Shown piece by piece: positions 7,599-28,521 of a DNA stretch of 39,739 nucleotides. Origin of the DNA: a virus; the IMG/VR virus record IMGVR_UViG_3300020411_000542, positions 1 through 39,739 of that record. One strand, written 5' to 3'. The stretch's first letter is position 1. Every line of letters begins with the position of its first letter. The notes under the pieces are model-generated. The model did no database searches. It was not told where the DNA came from and worked only from the letters and a program-made list of their open reading frames with translations. Both the position numbers and the translations under genes were made by a program.

Positions 7599-8896
7599 TA
7601 CACCTCCAGGATGCCGGCAAGACCACCGCTTTTAAATCCAAGTCCTACATCTATGCCCAGCTGTTTTTGTATATCCATAATTTCATCTGGGAATGCATCT
7701 GGGTTTCTTAATACTTTGTGTAGTTGTTGAAAGTATGCTGTCTTCTCTTTACCGACTAAACTTTTGTCAGATCCTAAACTTGCAAATAATCTCGATATAT
7801 CTTTACCCTCGATACCATATTTACGTAGAGCTTGATAACCCATCTTACCACCACGAACTAACATACCAGCCATGTATGGTACACGTCCGCCATCTGCAAA
7901 TTCAAAGTCGTCTATATCAACAGTATCAGGATCAAAAAATCTATCAGTAACTGATCTGCCTTTTCCATCTTTAACACTTACTAATCTTTCAGCAAATAGT
8001 TGTATATCATTTGGTGTATCTAATTTTGCAACTGCTGCTGCAACTTTTGGTCCAAAATATTTTTGTACCAATAACAGTGGATCACCCATACCGCCGCCAC
8101 CACCTTCGGTCATAAATTTAAAATCATCTGCTTCCATAATTGATGCTAAGGTTGGATTACCAGGCTCGTCAGTTAGATTTTTTATTCTATTTAAAAAATC
8201 TCTAGCGTTTGCTCTAACCACTGGTTGAGCTGCCTCTGATACACCTGCGTTTAGATAAATTTTATTTACTAAATCATTTACAATTAGATTATTGTTTTGC
8301 ACATTCTTAAGTGCTTCTAAACCTTTACCAGTTGGTAAAATAGTTTCTTCTGCAGACACAAACGGTGCTGCAATATCATCTGGTCCTCCACGTGAACCTG
8401 GTGGTGGTAAATCAGGATCACCTGGTGGTAAATCATCTGTTCGTCTTAAAAATTTATTTTTATTAGGATCATTTAAACCTAGTCTTTCAGCCATATCTGC
8501 TAGTTCATTATCTGATTTTTTTAGTCTTAACGACATCAAACCTTCTTTGTCTAAGTTTCTAGTTCCTGTAGCAAGGTCCGTAATATTTGCTGGCGCTGCA
8601 GGAGGAAAATAAAAATTTTCCATTGCTTTCATATTAGATAATAATTTGTTTGCTTGAATATCGTTTAGTTTACCAGCCACCGCATAACCTACAGAGCTTG
8701 TCAATTCTTCTACTGCTTTTGATTGTGGTAATACACCCAACGCATCAACGTTAATATCCATGTCTAACATCAGCTCTGGAGTTTTACCTTTTCCTAAAAA
8801 ACTTATATTTGTTTTAGTTCCAAGAACGTCGTTAACGTTACCTCCTAATTTTTTAAAAGATTGAAGGATTGCATTTAATATTTCTCGTCTAGCCAT
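7598..8896 (-). CDS. virion-associated protein with GGRV motif
   Basis: 432 residues, starting inside the TerL stop (8-base overlap). Pro/Gly-rich linker around 155-175 (DLPPGDPDLPPPGSRGGPDD), a Gly run near 265, and a C-terminal ADGGRVPYMAGMLVRGG motif at about 335-351, followed by a helical region. The GGRV-type motif also occurs in other virion-region proteins here. No catalytic motif is visible. Position between TerL and the ejection-type protein suggests a head or injection component; function unproven. Confidence 0.65.
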   Translation of the reverse strand: MARREILNAILQSFKKLGGNVNDVLGTKTNISFLGKGKTPELMLDMDINVDALGVLPQSKAVEELTSSVGYAVAGKLNDIQANKLLSNMKAMENFYFPPAAPANITDLATGTRNLDKEGLMSLRLKKSDNELADMAERLGLNDPNKNKFLRRTDDLPPGDPDLPPPGSRGGPDDIAAPFVSAEETILPTGKGLEALKNVQNNNLIVNDLVNKIYLNAGVSEAAQPVVRANARDFLNRIKNLTDEPGNPTLASIMEADDFKFMTEGGGGGMGDPLLLVQKYFGPKVAAAVAKLDTPNDIQLFAERLVSVKDGKGRSVTDRFFDPDTVDIDDFEFADGGRVPYMAGMLVRGGKMGYQALRKYGIEGKDISRLFASLGSDKSLVGKEKTAYFQQLHKVLRNPDAFPDEIMDIQKQLGIDVGLGFKSGGLAGILEV

Positions 8897-10358
8897 AATA
8901 TTCTACTCTACTCCTGTCAGGCAGTGGTTCGTCTTTGTAAGAATCTTTGTTACGAACTATTCCACCTTGTTTAATACGCATAATCGCTTGGGTCATAGAG
9001 TCGACATAGTCATCATGTTCTCCAAACGGAAACGCGGCGCATTCTTCTACAACCTCCTGTGCAAAATGTTGATGCATAGGGGCATAGACCATCCCCGTCT
9101 CAAATAACGGCGATACTGAATTTACTCTAGAATGTTTATCATTTCCTCGGCTCGGTGTAAAGTTAACAACTGGTATACCCATATCTCTTAGTTCATGAGT
9201 CAGAGGCAATCCTGATGCCTTGGACTCAACTACGACCATGTCAGGACGCCAGTATAGATACTCCTCGTAAGCCACTCGTTTTAGTTCTGGAAACTCGTAT
9301 CTATCTTTGAAAGCGTTAAGAAGAATTATTCCTTGTCCCTGATCCTCACCTATCTGAAATATTCCCCATGTAGTTATAGCACTATAGTCAGCAGATTCTT
9401 TTTTAAGAAAAGCTGTATCGTAAGACTGAATTATAAAATCACATTTAGGTGGTTCTCTATCTTCCCAGTTCTGCCACCAGTCACGTTTAATAATAGCACC
9501 TTCTTCAGCTGTTGGTGATTGCATGTACTGAGCGTTCCAGTTGTTAACCGGAATAGATGCTTTGGTTTTTTGTAATTCTTCCTTGGTCCAGTATTCAGGC
9601 CACACGGGCTCTCCATCAGGAAGCAGGGCTGGTAATTCTACAACTTCCCATTGGTCAGAGTCCTCTTCTCCCTGAGCCTTGATTAGTTGTCCGGTAAGAT
9701 CTTTATTACTCCACCTTGTCATAACAACAACGATACGACCTCCTGGTTGTAAACGTTGACGTGGACCTGATGTATACCAGTTCCATGCTTTCTCGAATGA
9801 CTTACTATCTTTTTTAATATCTTGTTCTTTGTGTGGATCGTCGATGATTAGTAGATCAGCACCACGACCTGTTATTGCTCCACCAACACCGGCTGCGAAG
9901 TATTCTCCTCCCTGTTCCGTTTTCCATTTACCAGCGGCCTGTGAGTCCTCCATCAGTCTGGTGTCGAACAATTGTTTATAGTTTTCTGTATCTACAAGAT
10001 TCTTAGTCTTACGTCCGAAGTCTATTGCTAGATCAGCCGTGTGTGTTGCTTGAATGATCTTTAACCGGGGATCGAGGCCAACCATCCATGCCGGGAGTAA
10101 GTATGAGGCAAACTCCGACTTTGTGTGTCTTGGCGGCATGTTGATGATTAGACGTTTAATTTTCCCCTCAGCGAGGTCATTAAATTTTTTATTAATTTTT
10201 TTGTGGTGTCCACCTTGAATAAACTCGGGCCACACATACTTCACAAAACTCAAAAAGTCTTTTTGTATTACTGGCTTAGTTTTATCTAGCTCAACACTCT
10301 TTTCTAATTCTAAAAGTCGTGCTTTCTCTTCTTCTGTTAATCCGTCAAAATTTTTCAT
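8889..10358 (-). CDS. terminase large subunit (packaging ATPase and nuclease)
   Basis: 489 residues. Walker A-like MPPRHTKS at 74-81, Walker B LLIIDD at 169-174, coupling motif TRW at 214-216, and an RNase H-like nuclease domain with D314 (SYDTAF), E378 (VVVESKASG) and D449/D450/D453 (HDDYVDS). It pumps DNA into the prohead through the portal and cuts at packaging start and end. The small subunit is 4.3 kb away on the opposite strand. The ATG at 10358 has no clear ribosome site; the AT-rich 261-base region upstream probably carries its promoter, though no good -35/-10 pair stands out. Confidence 0.97.
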   Translation of the reverse strand: MKNFDGLTEEEKARLLELEKSVELDKTKPVIQKDFLSFVKYVWPEFIQGGHHKKINKKFNDLAEGKIKRLIINMPPRHTKSEFASYLLPAWMVGLDPRLKIIQATHTADLAIDFGRKTKNLVDTENYKQLFDTRLMEDSQAAGKWKTEQGGEYFAAGVGGAITGRGADLLIIDDPHKEQDIKKDSKSFEKAWNWYTSGPRQRLQPGGRIVVVMTRWSNKDLTGQLIKAQGEEDSDQWEVVELPALLPDGEPVWPEYWTKEELQKTKASIPVNNWNAQYMQSPTAEEGAIIKRDWWQNWEDREPPKCDFIIQSYDTAFLKKESADYSAITTWGIFQIGEDQGQGIILLNAFKDRYEFPELKRVAYEEYLYWRPDMVVVESKASGLPLTHELRDMGIPVVNFTPSRGNDKHSRVNSVSPLFETGMVYAPMHQHFAQEVVEECAAFPFGEHDDYVDSMTQAIMRIKQGGIVRNKDSYKDEPLPDRSRVEYYG

Positions 10359-12194: not shown

Positions 12195-12210
12195 ATTGAC
12201 ATTTGTCAAT
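12195..12210. promoter_or_regulatory. ATTGACA/TGTCAAT palindrome
   Basis: ATTGACA (12195-12201), two bases, then its reverse complement TGTCAAT (12204-12210). It includes the -35 box of the plus promoter and is followed immediately by ATGGGATA (12209-12216). This is a plausible binding site for a dimeric regulator between the divergent 334-residue gene and the plus-strand gene. Confidence 0.5.
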
Positions 12211-12223
12211 GGGATATTATATT
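12196..12223 (+). promoter_or_regulatory. plus-strand promoter of the Cys-rich gene
   Basis: TTGACA (12196-12201), 16-base spacer, TATATT (12218-12223). The start should lie near 12230, about 90 bases before the ATG at 12321, leaving room for the hairpin leader. Confidence 0.6.
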
Positions 12224-12320: not shown

Positions 12321-12665
12321 ATGGCACTAAAATATTGCCAAAGTCATAAGTGCCATACTTATGACACAAAGGACAGGAAACGAGGTTCGAAAGGAAACCA
12401 AACAAATCAAACCAGAAGAAGAAGTCATTTCTATTATGGAAAGGGAAATTTCTGCTCATTGAATTGTTACAATGATTGGGCAGAAGAATTTATGGACAGA
12501 GCCATAGATAGTGTTTCTGGTAGAATTGTTGAGCCAAAAATCTTAACAGAAGAAAATGCGTGGCGAAGAGTTTGGAATAGATTGCATTGGGACGACAATA
12601 CTCTGCCAAGATATATTGAAAGAAATATGATTTCTGGTGCAGAAAGACCAATACAAGAAAACTAG
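12321..12665 (+). CDS. 114-residue Cys/His-rich protein, probable zinc binder
   Basis: ATG at 12321 with AAAGGA upstream. Near the N-terminus is CQSHKCH (Cys6, His9, Cys11, His12) and near residue 45 is FCSLNCYNDW (Cys45, Cys49), a likely metal site; the intervening loop is Arg/Lys/Gln-rich. The C-terminal half is helical and mildly charged. The family is remembered from marine phages without a function. It forms a monocistronic plus-strand unit with its own promoter and terminator among minus-strand genes, like an independently acquired or early-expressed gene. Confidence 0.75.
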   Translation: MALKYCQSHKCHTYDTKDRKRGSKGNQTNQTRRRSHFYYGKGNFCSLNCYNDWAEEFMDRAIDSVSGRIVEPKILTEENAWRRVWNRLHWDDNTLPRYIERNMISGAERPIQEN

Positions 12666-12685
12666 TTTCATCTGTCCTTGATGAA

Positions 12686-12761
12686 CAACTCTAGGTTGTA
12701 AGCTTCAACCACAACCTAGAGTTGAATTTTTGTTTTTTTTTTTTTTTTTTTTTTTTTTTTT
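12686..12761 (+). terminator. strong intrinsic terminator with 29-T tract
   Basis: CAACTCTAGGTTGT (12686-12699) and ACAACCTAGAGTTG (12711-12724) form a perfect 14-bp stem with an 11-base loop, followed by AATTTTTG and an uninterrupted run of 29 T (12733-12761). This is a textbook rho-independent terminator for the plus-strand gene, although the T run is far longer than required. It is the strongest terminator in the window. Confidence 0.9.
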
Positions 12762-12811
12762 GGGTGGGCCCGCCCAAAAAAAACAAGCTACGAGCTTGGG
12801 TGGGCCCGCCC
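12762..12811. repeat. two copies of GGGTGGGCCCGCCC
   Basis: Identical GC-only near-palindromes at 12762-12775 and 12798-12811, each self-pairing in RNA with one G-U. The first is flanked by T and A runs so the stem extends. A degenerate third copy is at 10463-10476. All three have a CAAGC close by. Mobile or regulatory nature unknown. Confidence 0.7.
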
Positions 12812-12859
12812 ATAGTCTACAAGCTACAAGCAGTCAAGAAAATTATTTTAATTTTTTTC

Positions 12860-12888
12860 TTGAGCTCTGGGATCTTATAGGATATAAC
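12860..12888 (+). promoter_or_regulatory. promoter of the gp88-containing plus-strand block
   Basis: TTGAGC (12860-12865), 17-base spacer, TATAAC (12883-12888). The predicted start, near 12895, lies just before the AGGAGG of the 78-residue gene. It follows the strong terminator, so a new promoter is needed here. Confidence 0.5.
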
Positions 12889-12906
12889 AGCTGGCAGGAG
12901 GACAAT

Positions 12907-13143
12907 ATGAAAGTAAAAGAAATAAAAAAAGGCGATAAGATTTTACACAGTCACCTGGGCACACAGCCGCCAGTATCTGGCGTTGTGATGGAGAGTCCAG
13001 TTCAGGGCCGGGGCGTACGTAGTACGATCCTGGTTGACGTTAAAGGGTCCGAGGTGGGATTATTTGACGAGATTGGTTCGATCTATACCAGCCAGATCCT
13101 GAAAGTGTTCCGGGATGATAACTGGTTACCAGTTGAACAATAG
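12907..13143 (+). CDS. 78-residue unknown protein upstream of gp88
   Basis: ATG at 12907 with AGGAGG 5 bases upstream fixes the start; the open frame continues upstream through the T tract, but that part is not credible protein. The product (MKVKEIKKGDKILHSHLG onward) looks like a small beta-barrel: a KGDKI turn, then VSGVVMESPVQ, STILVDVKGSEVGLFDEIG and a C-terminal LKVFRDDNWLPVEQ. No named family. Base composition is visibly more GC-rich than the minus-strand genes, shared with gp88 downstream. Confidence 0.75.
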   Translation: MKVKEIKKGDKILHSHLGTQPPVSGVVMESPVQGRGVRSTILVDVKGSEVGLFDEIGSIYTSQILKVFRDDNWLPVEQ

Positions 13144-13148
13144 AATTT

Positions 13149-13255
13149 CAGGTCCAATGAATCTAGGGCGCTTTGTCGTATCCGGACTATGCATTGGACC
13201 TGGATACCTCAGAGCTGGGACGGGCCGCGCATTGCGCGTGGACCCTGAAGCTCTG
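13149..13255 (+). ncRNA. structured leader between the 78-residue gene and gp88
   Basis: Two consecutive structures fill this gap: an 11-bp perfect stem CAGGTCCAATG (13149-13159) with CATTGGACCTG (13192-13202), then CAGAGCT (13210-13216) with AGCTCTG (13249-13255) enclosing GGG/CCC and CGCGC-ATT-GCGCG. It may be a cis-acting leader or a small RNA. No known family is recognised. Confidence 0.35.
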
Positions 13256-13258
13256 GGG

Positions 13259-13296
13259 CTCAAGCTCTCAAGCTTGACAGGTTACAAGCTACCTGG
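13259..13296 (+). repeat. CAAGC repeat cluster 2
   Basis: Three CAAGC units lie within 38 bases (CTCAAGCTCTCAAGCTTG, then TTACAAGCTACC) just before the gp88 ribosome site. Same repeat type as at 12784-12836 and 13973-14125. Confidence 0.6.
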
Positions 13297-13320
13297 TATA
13301 GGATTTTATAGGAGGATATT

Positions 13321-13923
13321 ATGTTAAAAAAAGAAGCAAGACAAATTACTGGCGGCCTGAGCAAGCCAAGCAAGATGCCTGGACCAGCTCACAACCTGCC
13401 GGCTGTGGCGTGTAAGACTGGCGCCAAGCTGGTGAAGGTCCCGGGCTCAGTCTGTGCGGGCTGTTATGCCCTGAAGGGTAGATATCGATTTAAAAATGTT
13501 CAAGACGCGCTCAGTCGAAGGCTGCAAGCATTGCAGGACCCTCGCTGGGTGGATGCGATGGTGACACTGATCCAGGGCCAGGACTGGTTTCGCTGGCATG
13601 ACTCAGGAGATATACAAAGTCTCAAGCATTTAGAAAATATATTCGAAGTGTGCAAGCGTACACCAGGGACCCGGCACTGGATGCCAACGCGAGAGGCACA
13701 GTTCCTGAAGCAGTTGGACCCTGCCACAATACCAACAAATTTAATTATTAGAATGAGCTCGCACATGATTGACCAGGGACCAGTTAAATTCTGGCCGTGG
13801 ACGTCTACAGTCACCAGCTCAGGCAATCGCACGTGTCCGGCCCCGGACCAGGGCAACCAATGCGGCAGCTGTAGAGCGTGCTGGGACAGGTCCACACCAA
13901 ACGTGTGTTACGGTAAACATTAA
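13321..13923 (+). CDS. gp88-family protein
   Basis: 200 residues; TAGGAGG lies just upstream of the ATG. It shows the pattern of the phage Gene product 88 family as I remember it: GGLSKPSKMPGPAHNLPA, CK...VPGSVCAGCYALKGRY, DPRWVDAMVTLI, FRWHDSGDIQS, TRHWMPTRE. Cysteines sit at 31, 45, 48 and, near the end, 172, 181, 184, 187 and 196 (CGSCRACWD), which looks like a metal or iron-sulphur site; no cofactor is proven. Activity is unknown for the family. Codon use and GC are clearly higher than in the minus-strand genes, suggesting separate origin of this block. Confidence 0.85.
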   Translation: MLKKEARQITGGLSKPSKMPGPAHNLPAVACKTGAKLVKVPGSVCAGCYALKGRYRFKNVQDALSRRLQALQDPRWVDAMVTLIQGQDWFRWHDSGDIQSLKHLENIFEVCKRTPGTRHWMPTREAQFLKQLDPATIPTNLIIRMSSHMIDQGPVKFWPWTSTVTSSGNRTCPAPDQGNQCGSCRACWDRSTPNVCYGKH

Positions 13924-14126
13924 TGATGATCTTTAGACACCCAAAATACTATGCTGAACTCAGGAAGCGAAGGCGCGAGCTTACAAGCTCTCAAGCCACA
14001 AGCGGCAAGCGTCCCAACCAGCGCTCAAGGGTTCAAGCTTCAAGCCAGAAGTCACAAGCTCCAGAATCTTCGAGCCAGGGTACAAGCGCACAAGCCCACG
14101 ATTCGGGGTGCAAGCAACAAGAATAA
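13923..14126 (+). CDS. 67-residue repeat-tailed protein after gp88
   Basis: ATG at 13923 overlaps the gp88 stop (TAATG), so translation is probably coupled. The first 20 residues (MMIFRHPKYYAELRKRRREL) resemble small proteins I remember behind gp88 in marine phages. The rest is low-complexity Ser/Gln/Ala (SSQATSGK, QASSQKSQAPESSSQ) encoded by the CAAGC repeats. Its last 146 bases are antisense to the nuclease gene's C-terminus. If not a gene, this would be only a repeat-opened frame; the head and coupling favour a gene. Confidence 0.55.
   Translation: MMIFRHPKYYAELRKRRRELTSSQATSGKRPNQRSRVQASSQKSQAPESSSQGTSAQAHDSGCKQQE
13973..14125. repeat. CAAGC repeat cluster 3
   Basis: About ten CAAGC pentamers in 150 bases at irregular spacing of mostly 7-18 bases. 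Read to the right they encode Q-A-S-S type residues; read to the left, as GCTTG, they encode the Leu/Ala/Cys-rich tail of the nuclease. A first cluster lies at 12784-12836 and a second at 13259-13296. Confidence 0.75.
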
Positions 14127-14346
14127 ATGTATTTTTAGGATGCTTCACGTGGAAGCTAATTTGGTGGGGTGAAAAGCGAATTTTGTCACCCAATGTCACC
14201 TTCAATTCCAGTGTAAAAAAGTGCTCGTTAACAGTATAACCCAGTAGATCGGGAGTCCCCAATAAGCTCCTGTTTTCAAGTCTATTCCACGATATTTTTG
14301 TAACTTTTCTTTTAAGTTCATTGTATAATTTAGCCTCTGGTTTCAG
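13981..14346 (-). CDS. VRR-NUC-like PD-(D/E)XK nuclease, possible CTG start
   Basis: The frame carries GTPDLLG, then FFTLELKV (E-x-K) and FSPHQISFHVKHP, the usual catalytic and helical motifs of VRR-NUC/Holliday-resolvase-like nucleases; a role in recombination or branch resolution is likely. The frame is open upstream to a stop next to the 74-residue gene, with no ATG, GTG or TTG before the conserved core. I chose the CTG at 14344-14346, which follows GAGGT by 7 bases and gives LKPEAKLYNELKRKVTKISW, matching the usual family start; the TTG at 14262 would remove 28 conserved residues. The C-terminus is encoded by GCTTG repeats and overlaps the plus-strand gene. Confidence 0.75.
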   Translation of the reverse strand: MKPEAKLYNELKRKVTKISWNRLENRSLLGTPDLLGYTVNEHFFTLELKVTLGDKIRFSPHQISFHVKHPKNTFILVACTPNRGLVRLYPGSKILELVTSGLKLEPLSAGWDACRLWLESL

Positions 14347-14362: not shown

Positions 14363-14587
14363 CTAAACTATTCTAATGACTTTGCCCATCTTAGACTTTT
14401 CTTTCTCACAAAGGAACACTAACCTATGAGTTTCTTTACTACCAATAATTTTATTTTCAAGTAATTTCGCACCAGTAAGATCATAAAATTCTCCGTTCGG
14501 TAACAACACTTGACAACGAGCATCTTGTACTACTGGAGATTTAAAAAAATTCTCTAGTGCTTTCTGTAACGTTCTACCTATAACCAT
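14363..14587 (-). CDS. 74-residue conserved unknown protein
   Basis: Starts MVIGRTLQKALENFFKSPVV, continues DARCQVLLPNGEFYDLTGAK and ends in a basic tail (EKSKMGKVIRIV). It resembles a small family remembered from marine phages. No ribosome site precedes the ATG; the predicted -10 box ends 11 bases upstream, so the leader would be only about 4 bases. It is followed 16 bases later by the nuclease gene, probably in one unit. Function unknown. Confidence 0.7.
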   Translation of the reverse strand: MVIGRTLQKALENFFKSPVVQDARCQVLLPNGEFYDLTGAKLLENKIIGSKETHRLVFLCEKEKSKMGKVIRIV

Positions 14588-14594
14588 AAGTGGG

Positions 14595-14623
14595 TTGATA
14601 TATATCTCATATATCTATATATT
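14595..14623 (+). promoter_or_regulatory. leaderless-type promoter of terminase small subunit
   Basis: TTGATA (14595-14600), 17-base spacer, TATATT (14618-14623), then 6 bases and the ATG at 14630. With the usual distance from -10 to start, transcription begins at or next to the A of ATG. No ribosome site exists in this gap. Confidence 0.6.
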
Positions 14624-14627
14624 GCAA
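14599..14627 (-). promoter_or_regulatory. opposing minus-strand promoter overlapping the TerS promoter
   Basis: On the minus strand, TTGCAA (14622-14627), 17-base spacer, TATATA (14599-14604), then 11 bases to the ATG at 14587. The two opposite promoters cover almost the same 33 bases, so polymerase can use only one at a time. Confidence 0.45.
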
Positions 14628-14629
14628 GT

Positions 14630-15127
14630 ATGACCAAACCAGGACCAAAACCAATGGTAAAGCCAGCATGGCACCCAGCAGACGACCTGACAGAGATGCA
14701 ACGTAGATTTGTAGATTTTCTGGCGTATCGTCAGGGTAGATCTACATTTACCAAAGCAGCCATAGAGGCAGGATACAGTGAGAAAAGAGCTAACAGAGAA
14801 GGCTCTGAACTTATGAAGAATCCAAAAGTACAAAGATACTATAGATGGAAATGTAACCAAATAAACAGATCGCAGGCTGTGAACCATACAAACTATTTGA
14901 ATCAACAAATTAGATTATCTGCAAAACTAGAGGACAAAGGTAAAGAAGAGAAATGTGCACCGTTTGAAAACTTAATTGGAAAAGCTGCGGGTCTATTCTC
15001 AGAAACTCATTACCATGGAGATTTAAATAAAATGACTATGGCAGAAAAACTAGAAGAGATTAAAAGACTTAAAAAAATACAGGCTGAAAAAATTGACATG
15101 GATGATACCAAACTTATTTCAGAGTAA
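14630..15127 (+). CDS. terminase small subunit
   Basis: 165 residues. N-terminal Pro/Lys leader, then LTEMQRRFVDFLAYRQGRS and FTKAAIEAGYSEKRANREGS, a helix-turn-helix typical of Terminase_2-type small subunits, followed by a helical oligomerisation region and charged C-terminus. It recognises phage DNA for packaging and presents it to the large subunit. Unusually it is on the plus strand, 4.3 kb from TerL, and has its own apparently leaderless promoter. Its end overlaps the convergent minus-strand gene by 14 bases. No terminator is visible between them. Confidence 0.85.
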   Translation: MTKPGPKPMVKPAWHPADDLTEMQRRFVDFLAYRQGRSTFTKAAIEAGYSEKRANREGSELMKNPKVQRYYRWKCNQINRSQAVNHTNYLNQQIRLSAKLEDKGKEEKCAPFENLIGKAAGLFSETHYHGDLNKMTMAEKLEEIKRLKKIQAEKIDMDDTKLISE

Positions 15128-15698: not shown

Positions 15699-16412
15699 TT
15701 AATCATTTTTTGTACCTTGGCCCTCTTCATTCTTGGTACAATTTGCATAATATTGATCGACCTTCTTCAAGAAGGTATGCATGTAGCCTTGGAATTCCTT
15801 GTCAAGCACTTCAAACTTTTGAAAAAATCCATCTTTACTGCACATTAGAATGATTCCAGACTGGATCTGTGTATCATATACATAGTTGTGGGCCATAGCG
15901 TAGGCCGCTAGCTGTGTGAAGTAATCATCAATCCATTCACGTTGTTTAGGCTTGTTAGTTTGTTTAAAGTCTATTATACTTTCGCGTCCGTTATAAATTC
16001 CTACAACATCAGTAGCACCAGCATACAGTCCAGGATAGTATAAGGTTACCTCAGTGCCCCATACCTCTTCCAGGTCCCCGAGTCCTGATCGAATGACCAC
16101 GTCTGCCATGCGCCCTGCTTCCTGGCCCAATGCCGTAAGATCCAGATGTCGTTCGTCCTTAATATATCCTTCAAGGTAGGTGTGCATACTAGTTCCACGC
16201 ATCGCGGATATATCTCTGATACGGTCCGCTCGTTGTTCACCCATTCGTTTCTTCCAATCTTCTAATTTCTGTTTCTTTTCTTCTGACTGTGTCGCTTGTA
16301 ATATAGTCGTAACACTAGGTAACTTTTCGTGTGTTCCTACATCGTAGTGTCGTTTACCATTAATCAATGCTCGTGTAGAAGTAGGGTAATTAAATTTTTT
16401 ATTCCAGATCAT
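15699..16412 (-). CDS. PD-(D/E)XK exonuclease, RecB/Cas4-like
   Basis: 237 residues from the ATG at 16410-16412, preceded by GAGG. Motifs: RGTSMH (His77), GATDVVG (Asp135), IIDFKQT (Asp148, Lys150) and QLAAYAMA (167-174), in the order of the RecB-like nuclease superfamily. It should degrade DNA ends in replication, recombination or host DNA breakdown. It follows the 46-residue membrane protein gene with a short overlap and ends beside the iteron block. The family is clear; polarity and substrate are not visible. Confidence 0.88.
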   Translation of the reverse strand: MIWNKKFNYPTSTRALINGKRHYDVGTHEKLPSVTTILQATQSEEKKQKLEDWKKRMGEQRADRIRDISAMRGTSMHTYLEGYIKDERHLDLTALGQEAGRMADVVIRSGLGDLEEVWGTEVTLYYPGLYAGATDVVGIYNGRESIIDFKQTNKPKQREWIDDYFTQLAAYAMAHNYVYDTQIQSGIILMCSKDGFFQKFEVLDKEFQGYMHTFLKKVDQYYANCTKNEEGQGTKND

Positions 16413-18068: not shown

Positions 18069-18263
18069 TTACTTGTCAAAACTATTCCATCCAGGATCTG
18101 TTTTGACACTGGTATCAATTGGTATAGTCCATCGTTTAATATTATGAGGTCCATTTGCAAACTCCTTTACTAGTTTATACCAAAGATTTTTATACCTATT
18201 ATCTTTGGTGCGATTGTAGTCATTGGCTGCTTTGTCTATCTTATTCTGTAGACTCAGTGCCAT
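18069..18263 (-). CDS. 64-residue conserved unknown protein
   Basis: I chose the ATG at 18263 (MALSLQNKIDKAANDYNRTK), which matches the start of a small family remembered from marine phages; an upstream frame extension lies inside the previous gene. The middle reads KLVKEFANGPHNIKRW. It overlaps the previous gene by 23 bases. Function unknown; likely an alpha-helical protein. Confidence 0.7.
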   Translation of the reverse strand: MALSLQNKIDKAANDYNRTKDNRYKNLWYKLVKEFANGPHNIKRWTIPIDTSVKTDPGWNSFDK

Positions 18264-18432
18264 AACGTCTTGTACCCCAATCAATTATCTTTTTTAAACC
18301 TGGTGCAGATAAGTGTACATCTACGCCATAAGATTTCCATGCTTTCTTCATTAGATTTAATTCTAATAAAAATATGGACCATTGTCTTTGTGTAATACCT
18401 TTTGGTTTTATTGTTATTATTTTATCTTTCAT
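18241..18432 (-). CDS. 63-residue conserved unknown protein, leaderless-type start
   Basis: MKDKIITIKPKGITQRQWSI and KSYGVDVHLSAPGLKKIIDW recall a small marine phage family. The ATG at 18432 has no ribosome site and lies 7 bases after a strong TATATT -10 box, so the mRNA is predicted to start at the ATG. First gene of a two-gene unit with the 64-residue gene. Confidence 0.75.
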   Translation of the reverse strand: MKDKIITIKPKGITQRQWSIFLLELNLMKKAWKSYGVDVHLSAPGLKKIIDWGTRRYGTESTE

Positions 18433-18439
18433 ATGGGAT

Positions 18440-18467
18440 AATATATATATTTTTAGGATATTGTCAA
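18440..18467 (-). promoter_or_regulatory. leaderless-type promoter overlapping an upstream stop codon
   Basis: Minus-strand TTGACA (18462-18467), 16-base spacer, TATATT (18440-18445), then 7 bases (reverse of ATGGGAT) to the ATG at 18432. The TGA stop of the 42-residue gene (18464-18466) is part of the -35 box. Confidence 0.65.
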
Positions 18468-26127: not shown

Positions 26128-26682
26128 TTATTTACTCCTCGTTACTTTGGTCCTGTTTCCTGCGAACACATTAAATAGATCAGAGGGCATCTCTTGTCCA
26201 GATTCTAGACGCTCTCTGACCAATGCTTTGAGAGTCATGGGTTCGACCTTTAGTTTCTGGACAGGTTCGTACCCTTGACCCTTCGCAAGGTTTGCATATT
26301 CGCTCGCCTTGTTATCTTCGTTACGACCAAAGGAAACTGTAATCTCATTTTTAATAAGATCACCCAGGCCGTTTTCTCGAAGCCATGTATAAGCTGCTTC
26401 TTTATTAGCTACTGTAATAGAAGCACCATAAACTGGTTTTACTTCAACTGAAGAACCATCTGCTAGTTTTAATGTAGAGATGTTCATCTCTTGCATCATA
26501 GTAGGTATAACCTCACCAGAAACTAAATCGATATGTCTCTTCAGTTCTTTTAATTCTTTTTCTTTTTCTACAAGATCGTCTTCTAATTTTTTTAGTTTAA
26601 CGACTTGATCTGATAATGACTTTGCATCACCGACTGAGTTTAGATCTTCTCTTTGATCTGCCTCAAAATTTATATCACTCAT
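26128..26682 (-). CDS. 184-residue coiled-coil replication-region protein
   Basis: AAGGAG upstream. Residues 23-52 form a strong coiled coil (SDQVVKLKKLEDDLVEKEKE). The rest has LKLADGSSVEVKPVYGASIT, GLGDLIKNEITVSFGR and EPMTLKALVRERLESGQEMP, conserved in a family remembered from marine podoviruses. Possibly a multimeric DNA-associated factor. Always seen, in my memory, beside the 253-residue protein. Function unknown. Confidence 0.8.
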   Translation of the reverse strand: MSDINFEADQREDLNSVGDAKSLSDQVVKLKKLEDDLVEKEKELKELKRHIDLVSGEVIPTMMQEMNISTLKLADGSSVEVKPVYGASITVANKEAAYTWLRENGLGDLIKNEITVSFGRNEDNKASEYANLAKGQGYEPVQKLKVEPMTLKALVRERLESGQEMPSDLFNVFAGNRTKVTRSK

Positions 26683-27031
26683 TTATCTCTCCTTTCTCAT
26701 ATAGATTAATTTTAATAGGATAGTATTTTCTTTCTTGTCTATCCCATTTGAGTAAATTATATTTTCCATTTGTAATATCAGATACAATAGAACATGCAAC
26801 ACCTATAATAGCAGGATCACCTGTTAACAATAAATAATCATCAGGTCTAAAATCTTTTAAAAGTTTTCTTAATTTAAAAATTAATGGACCTGGTGAAAAA
26901 ATTATTTGTGAAAGTTCTGGTAACAACGATTTTATTTCACCGTATTCTCTAGCACCTACAATATTTATCTTAGGTGTTCCGGCTTGTGTACCGGGCACGT
27001 CTTGTACTAAATAAACTATTCTTTCTGACAT
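26675..27031 (-). CDS. 118-residue conserved unknown protein, leaderless-type start
   Basis: I chose the ATG at 27029-27031 (MSERIVYLVQDVPGTQAGTP), because the longer frame begins with a TTG that is the -35 box of the promoter. The ATG is 8 bases after TATATT and has no ribosome site. Later parts (LLPELSQIIFSPGPLIFKLR, DDYLLLTGDPAIIGVACSIV) look like a small alpha/beta fold; family remembered from marine phages. First gene of the replication operon. Confidence 0.78.
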   Translation of the reverse strand: MSERIVYLVQDVPGTQAGTPKINIVGAREYGEIKSLLPELSQIIFSPGPLIFKLRKLLKDFRPDDYLLLTGDPAIIGVACSIVSDITNGKYNLLKWDRQERKYYPIKINLYEKGEINE

Positions 27032-27058
27032 TGACAAACAATATAAAGATGTTATATA
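27031..27058 (+). promoter_or_regulatory. plus-strand promoter of the SNF2-helicase gene
   Basis: TTGACA (27031-27036), 16-base spacer, TATATA (27053-27058; TATACT two bases further is also possible). Leader of roughly 20 bases before the ATG at 27088. Confidence 0.55.
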
Positions 27059-27067
27059 CTTTGTCAA
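27040..27067 (-). promoter_or_regulatory. minus-strand leaderless-type promoter of the replication operon
   Basis: Minus-strand TTGACA (27062-27067), 16-base spacer, TATATT (27040-27045), then 8 bases to the ATG at 27031. It shares its DNA with the plus-strand promoter; TTGACAAA (27031-27038) and TTTGTCAA (27060-27067) form exact mirror ends. Confidence 0.65.
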
Positions 27068-27087: not shown

Positions 27088-28521
27088 ATGAATTATAAAT
27101 TTAAAACAAAGCCTTATGCTCATCAGCTAAAAGCTTTAGAAATGTCATGGGATAGACCATACTTTGCATATTTTATGGAGATGGGTACTGGTAAATCTAA
27201 AGTATTAATAGACAATATATCTATGCTTTATGACAATGGTAAGATCAATGGTGTCTTAATTGTGGCACCAAAAGGTGTGGTAAAAAATTGGTATGAGGGT
27301 GAGATACCTACGCACCTTGTTGATCACATAGATTATAAATGTGTGTTGTGGCAATCATTAATTAATGCAAAACAACAAAAAAAATTAGACACTTTGTTTG
27401 AGACAGGTGAAGATCTACACATATTAGTTATGAATGTAGAATCTTTATCTACTAAAAAAGGTTATGATTTTGCGCATAAGTTTTTGTTTTCTCATAGAGC
27501 CATGATGGCTATTGATGAATCTACTACAATAAAAAATCCAAATGCAAAACGTACAAAAAATATATGTCAACTAGGGTTGGCTACCAAATACAATAGAATT
27601 CTTACAGGATCTCCCGTAACAAAATCACCGTTAGATCTATACAAACAATGTGAATTTTTACAGCCAGAGATATTAGGTTTTAGTTCTTATTATGCATTTA
27701 GAACTAGATATGCTGTTATGAGAACAGCAAACTTTAGTGGTAGATCCGTGCAGATTGTGGTGGGTTATAGAAATCTAGATGAATTGTCAGAAAAATTAAA
27801 AGCATTTTCTTATCGTGTATTAAAAGATGAATGTCTAGATCTCCCAAAGAAAACATTTATGAAACGTGAGGTATTGTTGACACCAGAGCAAACAAAAGCA
27901 TATTTACAAATGCAGAAGTTAGCCCATGCTCAACTAGATGGTAAGATGATGACTACAGCTACGGTGTTAACTCAGCTTATGAGATTACAACAGATAACCT
28001 GTGGTCATTTTACGGCTGATGATGGCACCATACATGAGATGCCTAACAATAGAATAGGTGAGTTATTAGATTTATTATATGAGATAGAAGGCAAGGTTGT
28101 TATCTGGGCCCAGTTTCAAAGAGACGTTAATAATATTACAGCAGCTTTACATAACGAATTTGGAGAAGGTTGTTACGTAGATTATTATGGACTCACACCA
28201 CAGGAAGAGAGACAAGAGAATATTAAAAAATTTCAAGACCCTGATTCCGGAGTTCGGTTCTTTGTAGGAACCACACAGACTGGTGGTTATGGTATTACAC
28301 TCACAGCTGCAAGCACTATGATATATTATTCTAATGGTTATGACTTAGAAAAAAGACAACAATCAGAAGCCAGAATAGATCGTATCGGTCAAGAAAAACC
28401 TATGACCTATATAGATATTATATGTGAGAATACTGTGGACACACGTATTGTAAAAGCTTTGCGTAAAAAAGTAGATATAGCAACACAGATAATGGGAGAG
28501 GAGTTGAAAGAATGGATCTAA
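27088..28521 (+). CDS. SNF2-type SF2 helicase/translocase
   Basis: 478 residues from the ATG at 27088 (MNYKFKTKPYAHQLKALEMS); a longer frame upstream crosses the promoter and is not used. Motifs: HQLKA near the start, MGTGKS (32-37), VAPKGVVKNW, AIDESTTIKN (DES at 143-145), LTGSP (172-176), and QSEARIDRIGQ (426-436) near the C-terminus. It is a double-strand DNA translocase type used in replication or recombination by many marine phages. It is on the opposite strand from the other replication genes, with its own promoter. Confidence 0.93.
   Translation: MNYKFKTKPYAHQLKALEMSWDRPYFAYFMEMGTGKSKVLIDNISMLYDNGKINGVLIVAPKGVVKNWYEGEIPTHLVDHIDYKCVLWQSLINAKQQKKLDTLFETGEDLHILVMNVESLSTKKGYDFAHKFLFSHRAMMAIDESTTIKNPNAKRTKNICQLGLATKYNRILTGSPVTKSPLDLYKQCEFLQPEILGFSSYYAFRTRYAVMRTANFSGRSVQIVVGYRNLDELSEKLKAFSYRVLKDECLDLPKKTFMKREVLLTPEQTKAYLQMQKLAHAQLDGKMMTTATVLTQLMRLQQITCGHFTADDGTIHEMPNNRIGELLDLLYEIEGKVVIWAQFQRDVNNITAALHNEFGEGCYVDYYGLTPQEERQENIKKFQDPDSGVRFFVGTTQTGGYGITLTAASTMIYYSNGYDLEKRQQSEARIDRIGQEKPMTYIDIICENTVDTRIVKALRKKVDIATQIMGEELKEWI

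Follow-up and report, generated by a model that had tools for sequence, protein, structure and literature searches.

A conserved, probable bidirectional promoter element between the terminase small subunit gene and a 74-residue gene in relatives of pelagiphage HTVC027P

The gap between terS and its divergent neighbor

The window analyzed here, a 39,739-nucleotide stretch of viral DNA (IMG/VR record IMGVR_UViG_3300020411_000542), belongs to a relative of the pelagiphages HTVC027P and HTVC023P. Its TerL stands at 64% to that of HTVC027P, and it shares the gene order of HTVC023P-type pelagiphages: exonuclease, terminase small subunit (TerS) on the opposite strand, a conserved 74-residue gene and TerL. 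In the window, TerS (14630..15127, + strand) and the 74-residue gene (14363..14587, − strand) diverge from an intergenic gap of 42 bp, and TerL (8889-10358) lies on the strand opposite to TerS. The 165-residue TerS product scores 45.7 bits against Pfam Terminase_2 (cut-off 26.1) and its PHROG match is likewise a terminase small subunit; its ATG is conserved in relatives, with no in-frame ATG, GTG or TTG upstream of it. Because a tblastn search with TerS found no match in annotated phages, relatives were taken from viral contigs, where they include one identical copy and one copy at 89%.

The 74-residue family is large: two scans of viral contigs gave 219 and 305 matching stretches. A role for this protein as a regulator was considered and rejected: it has no match at useful significance in Pfam or PHROG, a fold search with Foldseek returned no match with E below 0.001, and no regulator fold was recognized in its AF2 model, which comprises a helix and three strands (pLDDT 79, pTM 0.56). 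Behind its gene lies an open frame (13981-14346, − strand) with nuclease-like PDLLGY...ELK motifs and no match in Pfam; its start seems to be a CTG with GAGGT seven bases upstream, and its counterparts in relatives have a GTG (L155) or a TTG (L003) in the corresponding position.

The gap between the two genes contains a 33-bp element (14595..14627) that can be read as a promoter on both strands, with the + strand letters TTGATATATA-N13-TATATTGCAA. On the + strand, a −35-like TTGATA (14595..14600) and a −10-like TATATT (14618..14623) are separated by 17 nt, and the latter ends 6 nt (GCAAGT) before the TerS ATG at 14630, where transcription would be predicted to start. On the − strand, TTGCAA (14627-14622), which has two nucleotides in common with the TerS −10, is followed after 17 nt by TATATA (14604-14599), which has two in common with the TerS −35, and after a further 11 nt by the ATG at 14587; the predicted leader would be about 4 nt if transcription begins at the A at 14591. 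Both strands thus place their −35 and −10 elements within one common footprint, at a distance inside the 16-18 nt range expected of an overlapping divergent sigma70 pair. Measured against the consensus, the TerS promoter has 10/12 matches versus 8/12 for its − strand partner, which lacks the T at −7, although the SAR11 sigma70 consensus may differ from the one used; the − strand promoter is the weaker of the two in the window. A preliminary description of this DNA had given the letters and coordinates of both promoters, and re-reading of the sequence found them exact. Its term "face-to-face" was wrong, however, since the promoters are divergent and their transcripts would leave outward.

No Shine-Dalgarno sequence is present in the 42-bp gap for either gene, while an SD-like match precedes 21 of the 34 window gene starts examined. 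The absence of a ribosome site, noted before for TerS, therefore holds for the 74-residue gene as well.

Matches to promoter hexamers proved unsuitable as evidence by themselves, as the region is not enriched over shuffled sequence (13 promoter-like sites versus 15.6 in shuffles). Nor does the window show an excess of the half-motif TTGNAATATA, and the summed score of both promoters in the gap is reached by roughly 2% of dinucleotide shuffles (p about 0.02). Since a single sequence proves little, comparison with relatives was needed.

Conservation among relatives

Upstream gaps were retrieved through relatives of the 74-residue protein, not through DNA similarity. A divergent start codon lies 36-50 nt away in 67 of 76 unique upstream sequences, and 65 of these 67 unique gaps carry an element of the form TTG-N3-TATA...TATA-N3-CAA with a length of 32 or 33 bp only, from which spacers of 16-17 nt follow. 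The 53 distinct elements show no variation in TTG and CAA; some 50 of them (about 95%) retain both TATA blocks, and the most variable core positions carry only about 0.2 bits. The distances to the flanking genes are similarly constrained: TTG and the TerS-side ATG are 2 nt apart in 47 of 66 gaps, so that exactly 6 nt separate the −10 from this ATG, and CAA is 3 nt from the ATG of the 74-residue gene in 42 of 66. Many of these relatives are mutually close, forming 12 clusters at 80% identity, so that the counts overstate their independence. In the relative whose TerS is an 89% copy, the opposite-gene protein is only 69% identical, but TTGAT, TATATTGCAAG and the − strand boxes are retained. Loss of the −10/−35 pairs in close relatives would have spoken against the preliminary description; we found the opposite. 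Conserved elements around a variable core and between variable flanks are what an overlapping divergent sigma70 pair should leave, and the comparison backs both the two overlapping promoters on opposite strands and the position of the TerS −10, with transcription predicted to begin at the ATG. It is conservation, and not the hexamers alone, that places the interlocked pair beyond chance.

The comparison is also informative on how the two promoters are accommodated. The letters of the two half-sites vary independently of each other, with no co-variation at variable positions, which fits two promoters. Neither promoter can reach consensus, as each −35 shares its final two bases with the end of the opposite −10, and the compromise half-site is TTG-N-WW-TATA; across relatives, the −10 often lacks the T at −7 on at least one strand (TATATA, TATAAA). 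The better direction differs by clade, scoring 10/12 for TerS in the clade of the window and 10/12 for the 74-residue gene in the HTVC027P clade, where the TerS-side −10 is poor (TAAATA). Judging from the distances to the start codons, the HTVC027P clade would produce two leaderless or near-leaderless transcripts, whereas in the clade of the window such a start is predicted for the TerS transcript only, because ACTT precedes the ATG of the 74-residue gene.

A retrieval by DNA alone was made by scanning one form of the element, TTGCAATATA-N10-16-TATAWWNCAA, over 2.9 million viral contigs (IMG/VR). This yielded at least 119 examinable loci; among the matches listed, 94 directly adjoin TerS and/or the 74-residue gene, 78 of them both. 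Each of these 94 junction loci is 32 or 33 bp long; the other 25 span 30-36 bp. What is observed directly is the sequence and its conservation, along with a constant spacer of 16-17 nt and a constant distance from the start codons.

Five relatives without the element (L100, L110, L139, L227, L238) have a GC-rich potential hairpin of the type GGGG..GGCTTACGAA...GATACTGGGCCCC directly upstream of the 74-residue gene. The hairpins tested have no match in Rfam at the gathering threshold, and they are possibly an undescribed leader RNA.

The helicase junction and HTVC027P

Near-consensus sites in the window led to a second interlocked divergent pair at 27031..27067, with TTGACA-N18-TATACT on the + strand and TTGACA-N16-TATATT on the − strand. 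It separates a 118-residue gene (26675..27031, − strand), whose ATG at 27031 lies 8 nt after the −10, for a predicted leader of about 1-2 nt, from a probable helicase gene (27088..28521, + strand), identified from sequence and position as the equivalent of HTVC027P gp87. In relatives gathered with the 118-residue protein, facing TTGAC and TCAA boxes are present in 60/60 unique sequences (window included), and the elements fall into two size classes only, 33/34 and 37/38 bp. The 33-bp class, exemplified by TTGACATATA-N13-TATATGTCAA, has a geometry equal to that of the TerS element. This recurrence of one design beside different genes speaks most strongly for a promoter, as opposed to a packaging site. 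In all, 25 strong sites were found in the window, three of which are followed at 6-8 nt by a likely gene start (TerS, the 118-residue gene and a gene at 18241-18432), against an expectation of 0.05 that assumes some 50 gene starts. The last of these is a near-consensus TTGACA-N16-TATATT (18440-18467, − strand) that ends 7 nt upstream of the ATG of a 63-residue gene without a ribosome site, which makes this gene another leaderless candidate.

In HTVC027P (57.6 kb), whose host is the abundant ocean bacterium SAR11, the element occupies a 38-bp gap at 15945-15982, flanked by the ATG of gp30 at 15944 and that of gp31 at 15983; gp30 adjoins it directly, and TerS is gp29, behind gp30. The core ACAACTTA is nearly invariant in the HTVC027P clade (L153, 6463-6500), though promoter spacers need not be, and may be an extra protein site. 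Such conservation beyond promoter need, together with the inverted-repeat symmetry of the element, which in some relatives (L090, L142) is perfect, is what would be expected if the repeat were mainly an operator for a dimeric phage or host regulator, with at most one direction a real promoter. We consider this unlikely: an operator accounts poorly for half-sites that show no co-variation, for a half-site spacing that is exactly that of −35/−10 pairs on both strands, for start codons at fixed promoter-like distances and for the return of the layout, with consensus TTGACA, at an unrelated junction, and no regulator fold was recognized in the 74-residue protein.

HTVC027P has no RNA polymerase of its own and depends on the host enzyme (PMC12753301); our search with PF00940 for a phage-encoded T7-like polymerase gave no match, but its control was also silent, making the search uninformative. 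RNA-seq of HTVC027P infection is available (BioProject PRJNA1253180; PMC12753301). In these data, gp30 alone forms its own temporal cluster, high at 3 h and at 12-15 h after infection, and the timing of gp33 and gp34, upstream on the same strand, is different (PMC12753301). Because of this departure gp30 seems to have its own start, and its expression class agrees with a promoter of its own at the element, for which the start sites are predicted. Expression of TerS by read-through from the + strand genes upstream of it (12321-14126), with the AT-rich gap a weak or chance promoter, is consistent with a strong site before those genes (12196-12223, 11/12) and with our finding no + strand terminator between them and TerS. 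It is nonetheless very improbable given the conservation of the element, the distinct timing of gp30 and the lack at TerS of the ribosome site that a long leader should carry. Least credible is a TerS-binding packaging site (pac or cos) beside terS by chance, which we discount almost entirely: packaging sites are often located in or near terS, but the element is kept where the neighbor is not terS (HTVC027P gp30; L118, L137, L142) and the same design stands at the helicase junction some 12 kb away.

Two further features of this phage were recorded. The product of gp30 was named ArfA in the transcriptome study (PMC12753301); in our search (L153, 6286-6462) it scores 20.2 bits against Pfam ArfA, below the cut-off of 25.5, over 23 residues. 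The Rfam Flavobacterium-1 RNA (RF02976) is found in HTVC027P (L153, 8271-8391, − strand) and in a relative (L105, 2751-2877, + strand), and not in the window.

Interpretation and comparison with known systems

The best explanation is that the 42-bp gap very probably holds conserved, interlocked divergent sigma70-type promoters with leaderless or near-leaderless starts. Two promoters for host RNA polymerase would occupy opposite strands, the −35 of each overlapping the −10 of the other; rightward transcription would begin at the TerS ATG itself, giving a leaderless mRNA, and leftward transcription some 4 nt before the 74-residue gene. For TerS, the lack of a ribosome site and a suitably placed −10 are observed and the 5′ end is predicted; sigma70 recognition, the exact start sites, leaderless translation and mutual exclusion of polymerases are steps that we infer. 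Polymerase on one promoter would exclude polymerase on the other, as suggested by the geometry and by work on such promoters (PMC4207663, PMC12825309). The simplest function would be compact divergent expression, with two directions that compete when active.

The preliminary description went further on two points. It suggested, from the overlap, an on/off choice, which is a possibility and not a consequence, given that five E. coli bidirectional promoters have a basal activity too low for competition unless one direction is activated (PMC12825309). It also proposed control of packaging initiation, but the element is not packaging-specific: gp30 lies between it and TerS in HTVC027P, and the helicase junction is alike. 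A broader scheme, in which HTVC023P-type phages reuse a 33-38 bp module at two divergent junctions to produce leaderless or near-leaderless transcripts, and in which host polymerases competing for the shared boxes would govern when and in what ratio packaging and replication genes are expressed, without a phage polymerase, is offered tentatively, and we regard it as rather doubtful.

If the promoter reading is true, very abundant ocean phages without their own RNA polymerase use a minimal, reusable bidirectional promoter together with leaderless translation. They would then offer a natural, conserved system for asking whether the timing of phage genes is set by polymerases competing for one site, and for probing leaderless translation in SAR11-like cells.

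Leaderless mRNAs such as those of lambda cI, Tn1721 tetR and Rhodobacter acuR, or the 171 of Sinorhizobium meliloti, similarly lack a Shine-Dalgarno sequence, and they occur in Alphaproteobacteria, to which the SAR11 host belongs (PMC3017554, PMC3616915). Their AUG has been measured to lie at or beside the 5′ end (PMC3017554, PMC3616915), whereas for TerS this is predicted from the position of the −10. The literature searched yielded no example of a leaderless terminase small subunit.

The bidirectional promoters described by Warman, Grainger and colleagues in E. coli and other prokaryotes also drive divergent sigma70 transcription from pseudo-symmetrical DNA to which opposing polymerases cannot bind together (PMC12825309, PMC10268837). 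They differ in having shared or overlapping −10 elements and start sites separated by 7-25 bp, with 18 the commonest distance (PMC12825309, PMC10268837). The phage element falls outside that definition (PMC10268837): its predicted starts, 14591 and 14630, lie about 39 bp from each other, and its −10 overlaps the opposite −35.

The Pc/Pr pair of the Bacillus plasmid pLS20 has the same layout, in that the −10 and −35 of each promoter stand where its opposite-strand partner has its −35 and −10; only one of the two can be bound by polymerase at a time, and the enzyme itself is regarded as part of the switch (PMC4207663). Reciprocal placing of −10 and −35 is thus already known. Unlike the phage element, for which no regulator is known, Pc and Pr are under the control of RcoLS20, with DNA looping, and are of markedly different strength (PMC4207663). 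Pc is located 461 bp upstream of its gene, and the pair is one plasmid locus (PMC4207663), as opposed to a conserved module at two junctions. Within the literature searched, what seems new is such a conserved module at two divergent phage junctions, with a predicted leaderless terminase small subunit.
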